A stretch of DNA of 64,000 nucleotides from Lysobacteraceae bacterium. GTDB taxonomy: Bacteria > Pseudomonadota > Gammaproteobacteria > Xanthomonadales > Rhodanobacteraceae. Below, one piece after another: positions 10,771 through 28,761 of this stretch (positions are counted from its first letter, which is position 1; every line of letters begins with the position of its first letter). The notes below the pieces were generated by a model that made no database searches, had not been told where the DNA came from, and saw only the letters and a program-made list of their open reading frames with translations. Made by a program: the position numbers and the translations under genes. The stretch lies in the NCBI GenBank assembly GCA_004143945.1, contig SEHB01000003.1, forward strand, positions 186,001 to 250,000. The letters are read 5' to 3'.

Positions 10771-10784
10771 TGCGCGCCAGCCTT

Positions 10785-10853
10785 CCGTCGAGGGGCGCTG
10801 CAGCGGGTCCCCCGCGACGCTCGACGGACATGCATCCCCTTGCAAGGGCGCCC
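10785..10853 (+). ncRNA. S-adenosylhomocysteine (SAH) riboswitch
   Basis: It sits about 15 bases after the ahcY -10 and 43 bases before the ahcY start, the usual place for this class. P1 is CCGTCGA (10785-10791) with TCGACGG (10821-10827). P2 is GCGGG (10803-10807) with CCCGC (10811-10815). The conserved core GAGGGGCGCTGC is intact. The pseudoknot is perfect: GGGCGC (10793-10798) pairs with GCGCCC (10848-10853). The class binds SAH and switches on SAH hydrolase, so ahcY should rise when its toxic substrate accumulates. Confidence 0.93.
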
Positions 10854-10896
10854 GGCCGGACTGCCACGCAGCCCGCCACGAACCGGAGACCCACTG

Positions 10897-17045: not shown

Positions 17046-18725
17046 CTACGCGAACGCGCGCGCCACGGCGGCGTGATGCACGTCCGCGACCGCCCGGCCC
17101 GACGGATCGGCTGCCCTCGCGAATGCCGGGTCCCACTCGAGGGCGACACTGGACGAACACGCGATCGACTTGCCGCCCGGCACCGTCGCCGCGCAGGCCT
17201 CGCCCGGGAAGTGCTGCTCGAAGATGCGCCGGTACAGGTACGCTTCCTTGGTCGCGGGCGTGTTGTGCGGGTATCGCGCGGCGGCGGCCGCGAACTCGCG
17301 ATCGCCGACCGCCTGCCCTGCATGCGCCTTGAGCCCGTCGATCCAGCCGTAGCCGACGCCGTCGCTGAACTGCTCCTTCTGCCGCCACAGGATCTCGTCG
17401 GGCAGCGTGCCTTCGAATGCCTCGCGCAGCACCGACTTCTCGATGCGGCCGGCACCGGCCATCTTGTGAGAGGCATCCATCGACATTGCGAGGTCGAGGA
17501 ATTCGAGGTCGAGGAACGGAACGCGCGCCTCGACGCCCCAGGCCATCATCGCCTTGTTCGCGCGCAGGCAGTCGTAGGCGTGCAGCGCATCGAGCTTGCG
17601 CACGGTTTCCTCGTGGAACGCGGTCGCCGACGGTGCCTTGTGGAAATACAGGTAGCCGCCGAAGATCTCGTCGGCGCCCTCGCCCGAGAGCACCATCTTC
17701 ACGCCCATCGCCCGGATCCGACGCGCGAGCAGGAACATCGGCGTCGAGGCGCGCACGGTCGTCACGTCGTAACTCTCGATATGCCGGATCACCTCGGGCA
17801 GCACGTCGAGGCCCTCCCAGAACGTGTAGGTGAATCCGTGGTGCACGGTGCCGAGTGCACGCGCCGCGACCGCGGCGGCGGCGAGGTCCGGCGCGCCGTC
17901 GAGTCCGATCGCGAACGAGTGCAGTCGCGGCCACCAGGCCTCGCTGCGGTCGCCGTCTTCGATGCGCAGGCGTGCGCAGCGTGCCGCGCATGCAGCCACG
18001 AGCGACGAATCGAGTCCACCCGACAGCAGCACGCCATAGGGCACGTCGCCCATGAGCTGGCGATGCACCGCGGCCTCGAGCGCGCCGCGCAGCGCCGTCG
18101 GCGCGACCGAGCGACCCTGCACAGAAGCGGGATCGCGCCACGCGCGCTGGTGGAAACGCCGCAGCGAGCCGTCGGCGCTGTCGTAGACGTGGCCGGGCGG
18201 GAACACCGCGATGTCCGCGCAGAGGTCTACCAGCGCCTTCATTTCCGATGCGACGCACAGGCGCCCCATGCGGTCATGGCCCCAGTAGAGCGGGCACACG
18301 CCGAGCGGATCGCGGGCGATCACGCAGCGACGCGCCGCGCCGTCCCAGAGTGCGAACGCGAAGATCCCGTTGAGGCGCTCCGCCAAGCCGGTGCCGTGCG
18401 CGCGGTACAGCGCGTTGATGACTTCGCAGTCCGAGCCGCTGGTGTAGTCATAGTCACCGTCCACGCGAAGTTCACGGTGGTTGTAGATCTCGCCGTTGAC
18501 CGCGAGTGCGAGCGCGCCGTCGCGCGAGCGCAAGGGTTGCGCACCGCTCGCGGGATCGACGATCGCGAGCCGTTCGTGCACGAGGATCACCCCGGTGTCG
18601 ACGTACACGCCGCTCCAGTCGGGACCGCGGTGGCGTTGCCGCTGCGAATGCGCGAGCGAAAGCTGGCGCAGCGCGGCCAGGTCGTCACCGGGTTGCAGGT
18701 CGAACATGCCGAAGATCGAACACAT
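17046..18725 (-). CDS. asnB: Asparagine synthase (glutamine-hydrolysing)
   Basis: Makes asparagine from aspartate, ATP and glutamine in the cytosol. 559 residues, close to the E. coli AsnB length. The start at 18725 leaves Cys2 as the catalytic nucleophile of the class II glutaminase domain (MCSIFGMFD). RHRGPD and VNGEIYNHRELR complete that domain (about 1-190). The synthetase domain has the PP-loop LLSGGLDSSL and GEGADEIFGGYLYF. A leader with Asn codons and a terminator precede it. Its TAG stop is 71 bases from the metF TAG stop. Confidence 0.97.
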   Translation of the reverse strand: MCSIFGMFDLQPGDDLAALRQLSLAHSQRQRHRGPDWSGVYVDTGVILVHERLAIVDPASGAQPLRSRDGALALAVNGEIYNHRELRVDGDYDYTSGSDCEVINALYRAHGTGLAERLNGIFAFALWDGAARRCVIARDPLGVCPLYWGHDRMGRLCVASEMKALVDLCADIAVFPPGHVYDSADGSLRRFHQRAWRDPASVQGRSVAPTALRGALEAAVHRQLMGDVPYGVLLSGGLDSSLVAACAARCARLRIEDGDRSEAWWPRLHSFAIGLDGAPDLAAAAVAARALGTVHHGFTYTFWEGLDVLPEVIRHIESYDVTTVRASTPMFLLARRIRAMGVKMVLSGEGADEIFGGYLYFHKAPSATAFHEETVRKLDALHAYDCLRANKAMMAWGVEARVPFLDLEFLDLAMSMDASHKMAGAGRIEKSVLREAFEGTLPDEILWRQKEQFSDGVGYGWIDGLKAHAGQAVGDREFAAAAARYPHNTPATKEAYLYRRIFEQHFPGEACAATVPGGKSIACSSSVALEWDPAFARAADPSGRAVADVHHAAVARAFA

Positions 18726-18769
18726 CGGGAACCTCGTCGTGGCTGGAGATCGCAGGGGCAGAAACGAAG

Positions 18770-18792
18770 AAGGCCCGCACTGGGCGGGCCTT
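18770..18792 (-). terminator. Attenuator terminator in the asnB leader
   Basis: On the minus strand AAGGCCCGC, a five-base loop and GCGGGCCTT form a nine-base-pair stem followed by CTTCGTTT. It lies 45 bases before the asnB start and 28 bases after the leader-peptide stop. It would end asnB transcription unless the proximal arm is held by the alternative pairing with 18829-18836. Confidence 0.65.
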
Positions 18793-18819
18793 CGTCTCGT
18801 GTCGGTAGTCGAAAATCCG

Positions 18820-18915
18820 CTACAAGCCGGCCCTCCTGGTCGAGCAGGCATTATTCAGCGCGTTGCCGGTGGCCACGTGGAAGTGGCAGGTGCGGGGACG
18901 ATGGACGGACATCAT
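18820..18915 (-). CDS. Candidate asnB leader peptide (31 aa) with Asn codons
   Basis: A 31-codon frame upstream of asnB starts with two ATG (18915, 18912) and ends TAG at 18820. It contains GNALNN, so three Asn codons lie in a five-codon run (18, 21 and 22), unusual here because AAT is rare in this genome. About 20 bases after the last Asn codon the RNA contains GGAGGGCC (minus of 18829-18836), which can pair with seven matches to GGCCCGCC in the proximal arm of the terminator (18783-18790). A ribosome stalled at Asn leaves this pairing free; one that reaches the stop covers it. That is classic attenuation logic. Confidence 0.55.
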   Translation of the reverse strand: MMSVHRPRTCHFHVATGNALNNACSTRRAGL

Positions 18916-18921
18916 GGGCGG

Positions 18922-18950
18922 ACTACAGCACGCCCGTTCGTGCACCGCAA
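18922..18950 (-). promoter_or_regulatory. Possible promoter of the asnB leader transcript
   Basis: On the minus strand TTGCGG (18950-18945) and TGTAGT (18927-18922) are separated by 17 bases. The -10 ends six bases before the first leader ATG, so transcription might begin at or very near that codon, giving a leaderless leader peptide. Both hexamers are imperfect. Confidence 0.3.
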
Positions 18951-19146: not shown

Positions 19147-20214
19147 ATGCCGGATTTGGAGCGGGGACGCAGGGATACCGAGCTGCGCGCACGTCCGCGC
19201 AGCGTCGGCATCTGGTTGCTGGCGTGCTGCGTGGTGCTGCTGGTCCTCGTGATGGTCGGTGGCGCGACGCGGCTGACCGAATCGGGCCTTTCGATCGTCG
19301 ACTGGAAACCCGTCGCGGGCGTCTTGCCTCCTGTCGGCGAACCCGCATGGGAGGCGGAGTTCTCCCGCTACCAGGCCAGCCCGCAGTACGCCCAGGTCAA
19401 TCGCGGAATGAGCCTCGCCGAGTTCAAGACGATCTTCTGGTTCGAGTACGTGCACCGCCTGCTCGCGCGACTGCTCGGTTTCTGCTTCGCCCTGCCCCTG
19501 CTCTGGTTCTGGTTGCGTGGCGCGATTCCCGCGCGCATGCGCTGGCCGCTGCTCGGCATCTTGGCGCTCGGCGCGGCGCAGGGCTACATGGGCTGGTACA
19601 TGGTCCAGAGCGGACTCGTCGACGTGCCCCGCGTCAGTCCGTACCGGCTGGCCGCGCACCTCGGGCTCGCCGTGCTCGTGCACGCGCTGATGCTGCGCGC
19701 GGCTCTCGGGCTGGTATGGCCGCGTGTCGCCGATGCGGGTACGTCCGCGCGCCGCTGGCCGCGGGGCATGTTGCTCGCGCTCGTCGCGACGACGATCCTG
19801 TTCGGTGCATTCGTCGCCGGCCTGCGCGCGGGCCTCATGTACAACACGTTCCCGACGATGGCGGGGCACTGGATACCGCCTGGACTGGCCGGGATGGAAC
19901 CGGCGTGGCGCAATCTTTTCGAGAACCCGGTGACCGTGCAGTTCATCCACCGCGTGCTCGCGTTGACGACATTGGTGGCCGTGGCCTGGGTCGTGTGGCG
20001 GCTGCGAGGAGCTGCCAGCGATGCAGCACGCGCACGTTCACGCATTGCGCTGCTGCTGATGGCGCTGGTGCAGGTCGGTCTCGGCATCTGCACGCTGCTG
20101 TGGGCCGTGCCCGTCTGGCTCGGCACCCTGCATCAGGGCGGGGCAGTCCTGCTGCTGAGCGCCGTGATCGTCGCGGGTTGGAGTTGGACCACGCGGCCCG
20201 CGCACGCGCGCTGA
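19147..20214 (+). CDS. ctaA: Heme A synthase (COX15/CtaA family)
   Basis: Oxidises the methyl group of heme O to make heme A for aa3-type cytochrome oxidase. An inner-membrane protein of 355 residues with eight predicted transmembrane segments. Diagnostic text: MVGGATRLTESGLSIVDWKPV, the heme-ligand histidines in FEYVHRLLARLLG and FIHRVLALTTL, TFPTMAGHWIP, and LGTLHQGGAV near the end. This is the type found in proteobacteria and mitochondria (COX15-like). Start at 19147 after GGAGCGGG; longer readings run into the asnB regulatory region. Single gene. Confidence 0.96.
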   Translation: MPDLERGRRDTELRARPRSVGIWLLACCVVLLVLVMVGGATRLTESGLSIVDWKPVAGVLPPVGEPAWEAEFSRYQASPQYAQVNRGMSLAEFKTIFWFEYVHRLLARLLGFCFALPLLWFWLRGAIPARMRWPLLGILALGAAQGYMGWYMVQSGLVDVPRVSPYRLAAHLGLAVLVHALMLRAALGLVWPRVADAGTSARRWPRGMLLALVATTILFGAFVAGLRAGLMYNTFPTMAGHWIPPGLAGMEPAWRNLFENPVTVQFIHRVLALTTLVAVAWVVWRLRGAASDAARARSRIALLLMALVQVGLGICTLLWAVPVWLGTLHQGGAVLLLSAVIVAGWSWTTRPAHAR

Positions 20215-28687: not shown

Positions 28688-28761
28688 TGGAGCGGGTGAT
28701 GGGAATCGAACCCACGTTAGCAGCTTGGGAAGCTGCAGTTCTACCATTGAACTACACCCGC
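28688..28761 (-). tRNA. glyU: tRNA-Gly (anticodon CCC)
   Basis: Complete cloverleaf on the minus strand. Acceptor GCGGGTG with CACCCGC, D-loop TAGTTCAATGGTAGA, anticodon stem GCAGC/GCTGC around TTCCCAA (anticodon CCC), T-arm with GGTTCGATTCC, and an encoded CCA (28690-28688). Reads GGG glycine codons. Confidence 0.96.

Follow-up and report, generated by a model that had tools for sequence, protein, structure and literature searches.

An Asn-rich leader upstream of asnB as a probable ribosome-mediated transcription attenuator in one order of gammaproteobacteria

Introduction

Ribosome-mediated attenuators in proteobacteria are known from the trp, his, thr, leu, ilv and phe leaders. In Firmicutes, T-box RNAs sense uncharged tRNA-Asn and control asparagine genes by termination. 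Large surveys of attenuators are reportedly owed to Vitreschak and to Lyubetsky and colleagues.

Here we analyzed a 64,000-nucleotide stretch of a Lysobacteraceae genome (the window), in which asnB is preceded by a short Asn-rich reading frame. We describe the anatomy, conservation, covariation, promoter spacing and gene context of this leader and of its counterparts in related genomes. We propose, with a probability of about 0.88, that this family of leaders senses charged tRNA-Asn and acts by ribosome-mediated transcription attenuation. With the T-box of Firmicutes it would share tRNA-Asn sensing and termination control of asparagine genes, but the T-box binds tRNA directly to RNA and has no translated leader. 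Like the classical attenuators, the asnB leader combines a short open reading frame (ORF) bearing a run of end-product codons with a terminator ahead of a biosynthetic gene, and one segment is common to antiterminator and terminator, as described for trp in PMC7298713. It differs from them in its Asn codons, its probable leaderless start and its lack of a well-supported 1:2 hairpin.

According to PMC7298713, the start codon of the leader peptide forms the 5' end of the trpL attenuator RNA of Sinorhizobium meliloti, and both the leaderless peptide and its RNA have functions in trans. The asnB leader would resemble trpL in its probable leaderless start, which is here suggested by promoter spacing only; trpL differs in belonging to an alphaproteobacterium, in its Trp codons and in preceding trpE. 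Another Asn-rich upstream ORF, sORF7 of Staphylococcus aureus, is presented as a candidate leader peptide in PMC13009471. The text on it shows no attenuator; the bacterium is distant, and the downstream gene is of unknown function.

The original prediction, made from the letters of the window, knew of no described case for asparagine. We likewise found no asparagine attenuator in searches of an open-licence library; older surveys in subscription journals lay outside this scope, and priority is therefore not certain. PMC2965389, PMC4833913 and PMC1262725 yielded nothing relevant on asparagine or asn. Xanthomonas AsnB2 is mentioned once, in a context not relevant here, in an sRNA study (PMC3771888). 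As far as our search reached, the novelty lies in the Asn specificity, the association with asnB and the probable leaderless start, whereas the mechanism itself is known.

Anatomy of the leader in the window

The asnB product scored 815.5 bits against NCBIfam NF006949 (cut-off 499). The predicted 31-codon Asn-rich leader was recovered upstream of this gene, and the features of the locus are collected in Table 1.

Table 1. Features of the asnB locus, in window coordinates
Feature	Position	Strand	Basis
asnB, glutamine-hydrolysing asparagine synthase B, 559 aa	17046..18725	-	NCBIfam NF006949, Pfam PF00733
GAGG, Shine-Dalgarno of asnB	18732..18735	-	sequence
U-rich tail TTCTTCGTTTC, imperfect	18761..18771	-	sequence; 5 T in best 8 nt
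Intrinsic terminator hairpin (5' arm 18784-18796, loop 18779-18783, 3' arm 18766-18778)	18766..18796	-	
Segment 3, GGCCCGCC, common to antiterminator and terminator	18783..18790	-	
Leader ORF, 31 codons, MMSVHRPRTCHFHVATGNALNNACSTRRAGL	18820..18915	-	sequence and orthologous leaders
Second antiterminator strand CTTGT, extending into the stop codon, opposite ACGAG (18796-18800)	18822..18826	-	
Segment 2, GGAGGGCC, antiterminator 5' side, within the leader ORF	18829..18836	-	
Asn codons 18 (18862-18864), 21 and 22 (18850-18855), presumed regulatory	18850..18864	-	sequence; cluster conserved in orthologues
Extended -10 element TGC-TGTAGT (-10 TGTAGT 18922-18927)	18922..18930	-	17-nt spacer to -35
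Promoter -35 element TTGCGG	18945..18950	-	pattern before 96/118 leader starts

The terminator had been described as a nine-base-pair hairpin with a partial U-tract, 45 bases before asnB. Hairpin and U-tract are indeed present upstream of the gene, but the stem is longer, with 12 pairs and one mismatch (10 pairs consecutive), and its end lies about 40 nt from the asnB ATG. The hairpin has a folding energy of −23.7 kcal/mol (z −5.34), and none of 200 shuffles was as good. The predicted pairing between a leader segment and the proximal arm of the terminator was also found, with 7 of 8 positions of segments 2 and 3 able to pair; this pairing is no better than that of shuffled segments (z +0.17). 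The second antiterminator strand, CGTGT or CGCGT in many relatives, is weakened in the window by one mismatch.

When the upstream regions of all loci are shuffled, three Asn in ten codons, the value of the window, are still reached in 334 of 2680 cases, and the 231-nt leader region folds like its shuffles (z −0.72). In the window sequence alone, the terminator is the only feature beyond chance, and the case for the leader and the antiterminator comes from comparison with orthologues.

Conservation of the leader among orthologues

Upstream regions of asnB were taken from 80 loci and from 29 loci of other genomes (147 genomes of the window's family searched), and 40 further asnB places were added from the family and the order. 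Among the first 110 loci, L019 and L049 were dropped for having too little upstream DNA and L083 for beginning inside the gene. The 107 usable loci included 13 exact duplicates, which were removed. Overall, 134 regions were kept, 126 of them distinct over the last 230 nt.

With an Asn-rich frame defined as at least three Asn in ten codons, such a frame lies upstream of close asnB orthologues in 101 of 103 distinct regions of the window's family, 17 of 17 of a second family and 2 of 2 of a third. A further draw from the second family, checked for the frame only, gave 9 of 9. In L015, counted as one of the two misses, the leader was seen on reading to sit further upstream, past a repeat array; in the other, L067, none was visible within just 250 nt of upstream DNA. 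Divergent asnB genes had no Asn-rich frame in the first set (0/4) and no leader-like frame on reading in a second draw (0/11), in which ten genes stayed below three Asn and one reached three in an unrelated, AT-rich frame. At least five Asn in ten codons occurred in 105 of the 134 upstream regions but in none of the 134 reverse complements or 2680 shuffles.

The repeat array of L015 consists of several copies containing GGATGGCCGGTA, which lie between terminator and asnB and displace the leader far upstream. The copies look like dispersed intergenic repeats, and similar peptides occur in frames of L043 and L054.

The called leaders are 20–45 codons long and their N-termini differ, while the Asn run and the tail are retained; typical endings are NNNNANNNTRIDGWAGV, NNNNRANNNANRWRARA or NNNNRNNASLPRAGD. 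In some clades the leader has only 20–22 codons and its other residues have changed, but the Asn run is kept. Across 48 nearest-neighbour leader pairs, changes of Asn codons were synonymous in 44 of 104 cases versus 114 of 531 at other codons, although an Asn codon offers only one synonymous substitution out of nine. Judged from these sequence comparisons, selection acts on the Asn codons of the leader. The AAT (AAU) share of Asn codons is 351/785 in the distinct leaders (306/684 for the window's family), compared with 102/772 in the asnB genes of that family (first 550 codons, 109 loci, duplicates included). This enrichment may slow decoding or keep the Asn run unstructured.

Promoter spacing and the start of the leader

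Codon and promoter counts were made on 118 distinct leaders. A promoter pattern, TTGNNN-N15..19-YNNMNT, precedes 96 of them, with a spacer of 17 nt in 90 cases. In 93 of the 118 the promoter ends 6 or 7 nt before the leader ATG; at shifted control sites the count was 11 of 762. The 22 leaders that miss the pattern include 13 of 16 from the second family. A different -10 element seems, by eye, to lie at a similar place in second-family leaders.

A Shine-Dalgarno-like motif was found before 9 of 118 leader ATGs and before 112 of 118 asnB genes. Since the promoter lies 6–7 nt before most ATGs and Shine-Dalgarno motifs are few, the leader mRNA is probably leaderless, with the start site placed by promoter spacing. 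For the window, the predicted transcription start is A18915, which is the first base of the leader ATG, or a base adjacent to it.

Covariation of the terminator and antiterminator

The leader set comprised 127 of 128 candidates; L145, which has an Asn-rich frame and no usable start, was left out. A terminator scan, in which a tail needed four or more T within 8 nt, recovered a hairpin in 125 of the 127. The two failures, L065 and L140, have visible hairpins and are absent from the antiterminator, alignment A1, 1:2-hairpin, second-strand, strand-exchange and ribosome-masking sets. The distance from leader stop to terminator is 19–37 nt (125 leaders). Alignment A1 was made without L137, L139 and L144 (3/117) because of their long tails.

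The terminator is paired in 98.7% of cells and has a covariation score of 0.224 (0.099 in shuffles), with 86 cells changed on both sides compared with 15.1 in shuffles and at most 18 when the partner was slid. The antiterminator is formed by the leader tail, with its GGGCC core, pairing with the terminator 5' arm. Its core is paired in 92.8% of cells, against 31.9–56.0% with a slid partner, and its covariation score of 0.150 exceeds those of the slid and the shuffled versions (at most 0.052 and 0.109, respectively). Changes on both sides were counted in 13 cells versus 3.5 in shuffles, but three of the slid versions gave more, 14 to 22. Neither changed pairs nor pair types were more numerous than in shuffles.

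Segment pairs from the same leader are about 4.5 kcal/mol better than pairs that combine the window's family with the second or third family (own −25.91 and −24.95 kcal/mol, swapped −21.39 and −20.48 kcal/mol). Over all loci the difference is smaller, −25.78 versus −24.23 kcal/mol, with the own pairing beating the swapped mean in 85 of 125. The antiterminator z is below −2 in 75 of 125 loci, and 661 of 7500 shuffled segments reached the energy of the own segment. Taken together, the antiterminator pairing is clade-matched at the family level, with mixed evidence within clades. The original prediction had called for co-conservation of leader, antiterminator and terminator; leader and terminator do co-occur in three families, and the antiterminator is matched at the family level. 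The pattern named as speaking against it, orthologous loci without the frame or Asn codons varying while the hairpin stayed, was looked for and did not occur.

At least five pairs join the second antiterminator strand to the spacer in 98 of the 116 distinct loci, compared with about 38% of shuffles. The variable position of this strand is C-G 53 times and T-A 35 times. Exchanging this strand between GCG- and GTG-ending leaders weakened pairing in one direction only; L057, L137 and L143 are absent from the 1:2 arm-shuffle and second-strand exchange test.

A protective 1:2 hairpin directly after the Asn codons, expected from classical attenuators, looked convincing by eye, but the counts did not back it well. 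At one threshold it was found in 33 of the 52 tails used, out of 81 distinct ones, versus 21% of shuffles. Shuffled arms matched its own score in 3727 of 13000 trials, and the folding energy of the 1:2 region was no better than that of shuffles. As the 1:2 hairpin lacks good support, the switch looks two-state.

We also modeled the masking of the leader by a ribosome whose footprint is our own assumption. With a ribosome stalled at the last Asn codon, half or more of the terminator 5' arm was paired to the leader in 75 of 117 loci; the count was 28 with the ribosome at the stop codon and 98 without a ribosome (mean pairing 0.56, 0.35 and 0.63, respectively). The separation is partial: some loci show it clearly and others weakly, the window copy (0.59, 0.47 and 0.52) being one of the latter. 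Because the antiterminator also forms without a ribosome in these folding models, leader translation seems to permit termination. The models thus favour a two-state switch in which a ribosome at the stop codon would allow termination.

Distribution and gene context

A covariance model of the element, R1, was searched over 200 genomes of the order; many of the leaders found are in its training set. Matches at E 0.1 or better occurred in 126 of the 200 genomes. Most of the weak matches are probably due to chance, and those above E 1e-5 may be common terminators. All 50 order-wide matches below E 1e-5 lie beside asnB, as established by reading and comparing the places, and no other gene was found under the element among these strong matches. 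In one genome, G158, the best R1 match is on a different contig from asnB. Another genome of the order has a match of E 1.1e-5 away from any listed asnB place (G203:C24:7295-7398).

Outside the order, the best R1 match in 274 genomes of the class had an E of 3.4e-5, near chance expectation, and was taken as chance. Among the genomes of this class sample that lie outside the order, a single one carried an asnB passing the E 1e-180 threshold. Its locus (L173) revealed no leader-like frame on reading; the frame present is AT-rich, has three Asn and ends in NNSF. No T-box or other Rfam family was detected at the gathering score at the asnB leader of the window or at the loci of seven relatives.

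Asparaginyl-tRNA synthetase (AsnRS) is over the cut-off in all 31 genomes examined (the window's own and 30 relatives). For GatB there was no match in the window's genome, and 6 of the 31 genomes have one; for AsnA there was likewise no match in the window's genome, and 0 of 21 were over the cut-off. An amidotransferase uncoupling Asn-tRNA from free asparagine was discarded for the window's genome, which has no GatB match. With no match to GatB or AsnA, Asn-tRNA charging there should depend on free asparagine.

The idea that AsnB is the sole asparagine synthase was dropped, since the window's genome encodes a second protein with an asparagine-synthase domain (G000:C13:350403-351476, loci L002 and L003; 39–44% identical in two pieces). 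Given this gene, asparagine may also come from a source other than AsnB. The gene adjoins a glycosyltransferase-like frame, as labeled by eye.

Proposed mechanism and alternative explanations

Read from these sequences, the leader very likely turns off asnB when asparagine is in good supply. We propose that RNA polymerase begins at the first base of the leader ATG or next to it and that a ribosome initiates on the leaderless message. With ample Asn-tRNA, the ribosome would clear the Asn codons, reach the stop codon and cover segment 2; segment 3 would then pair with segment 4, and transcription would end before asnB. When Asn-tRNA is scarce, the ribosome would stall in the Asn run and leave segment 2 free to form the antiterminator with segment 3, so that asnB would be transcribed. 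The analysis supports the attenuator originally predicted and amends it with a longer terminator, a probable leaderless start, a switch that looks two-state and a weak window copy.

With such a leader, asparagine would join the amino acids under translation-coupled attenuation, through an element common to at least three families of one order whose strong matches lie at one gene only. The leader would offer a simple account of how asparagine synthesis is adjusted in these bacteria, whose asparaginyl-tRNA seems to derive from free asparagine alone, and the probable leaderless start would provide a handle on leaderless initiation in gammaproteobacteria.

The alternative that survives best concerns the window itself, where the copy could be a decaying remnant with little regulation while the family works elsewhere; we regard this as rather unlikely. 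The window copy is among the weakest of the element family. Its best ten codons hold 3 Asn, compared with at least 6 in 85 of the 134 regions, and to this are added the mismatched second antiterminator strand, the interrupted U-tract and an antiterminator that does not outperform shuffled segments. In the sample, three other genomes from the window's genus (G085, G120 and G130) have no asnB match at E 1e-150, and the gene may thus be lost or replaced within the genus. Against decay, the window keeps the promoter, the frame, the stop codon, 7 of 8 core pairs and a strong terminator, and R1 scores it at 78 bits (E 8.8e-18), with the window copy included in the training set. Few codons need not be disabling either: leaders with two to four regulatory codons work in other operons, such as trpL with two Trp. 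On balance, we consider it reasonably likely that the copy in the window has remained a functional attenuator.

A more specific version of the attenuator is improbable as a whole, namely an asparagine-specific leaderless device in which leader translation is required for termination and which is tuned by AAU codons. If AAU were chosen as a poorly read codon, for instance because queuosine is missing from the wobble base of tRNA-Asn, asnB would respond to both the modification and the charging of this tRNA.

It is very unlikely that the Asn-rich ORF acts mainly as a small protein in trans, or the terminated RNA as an sRNA, with attenuation secondary. The leaderless trp leader peptide of S. meliloti and its RNA set a precedent (PMC7298713), but conservation of the asnB leader is found mainly in the Asn run and the RNA-pairing tail of frames that vary in length (20 to 45 codons) and N-terminus. 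Moreover, the frame keeps a tight distance to the terminator, and strong element matches occur only before asnB.

Less probable still is starvation control at the level of translation, in which a stalled ribosome would alter access to the asnB ribosome-binding site. PMC13009471 describes such control for arginine by rbfL of S. aureus. At asnB, however, the distance from hairpin to gene is variable, ranging from 29 to 223 nt, and all 125 terminators carry at least 4 T in the 8-nt tail, as the scan required.

The reading of the hairpin as an ordinary terminator of upstream transcription, with the Asn frame as a by-product of an AT-richer spacer, fits the window ORF alone, which is within chance, but is already contradicted by the absence of five Asn in ten codons from all reverse complements and shuffles, by the dedicated promoter at a fixed distance from most leader ATGs and by the upstream neighbour, a divergent COX15/CtaA gene (19147-20214, +) whose transcript would miss the hairpin.

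Additional observations

AsnB itself is poor in Asn, with an average of about 7 among its first 550 codons (772 Asn codons over 109 loci, window's family). A low Asn content would suit an enzyme needed under asparagine shortage.

Elsewhere in the window, an SAH riboswitch aptamer lies at 10784-10860 on the plus strand (RF01057, 40.3 bits, Rfam gathering score), and a tRNA gene at 28691-28761 on the minus strand (RF00005, 71.1 bits).
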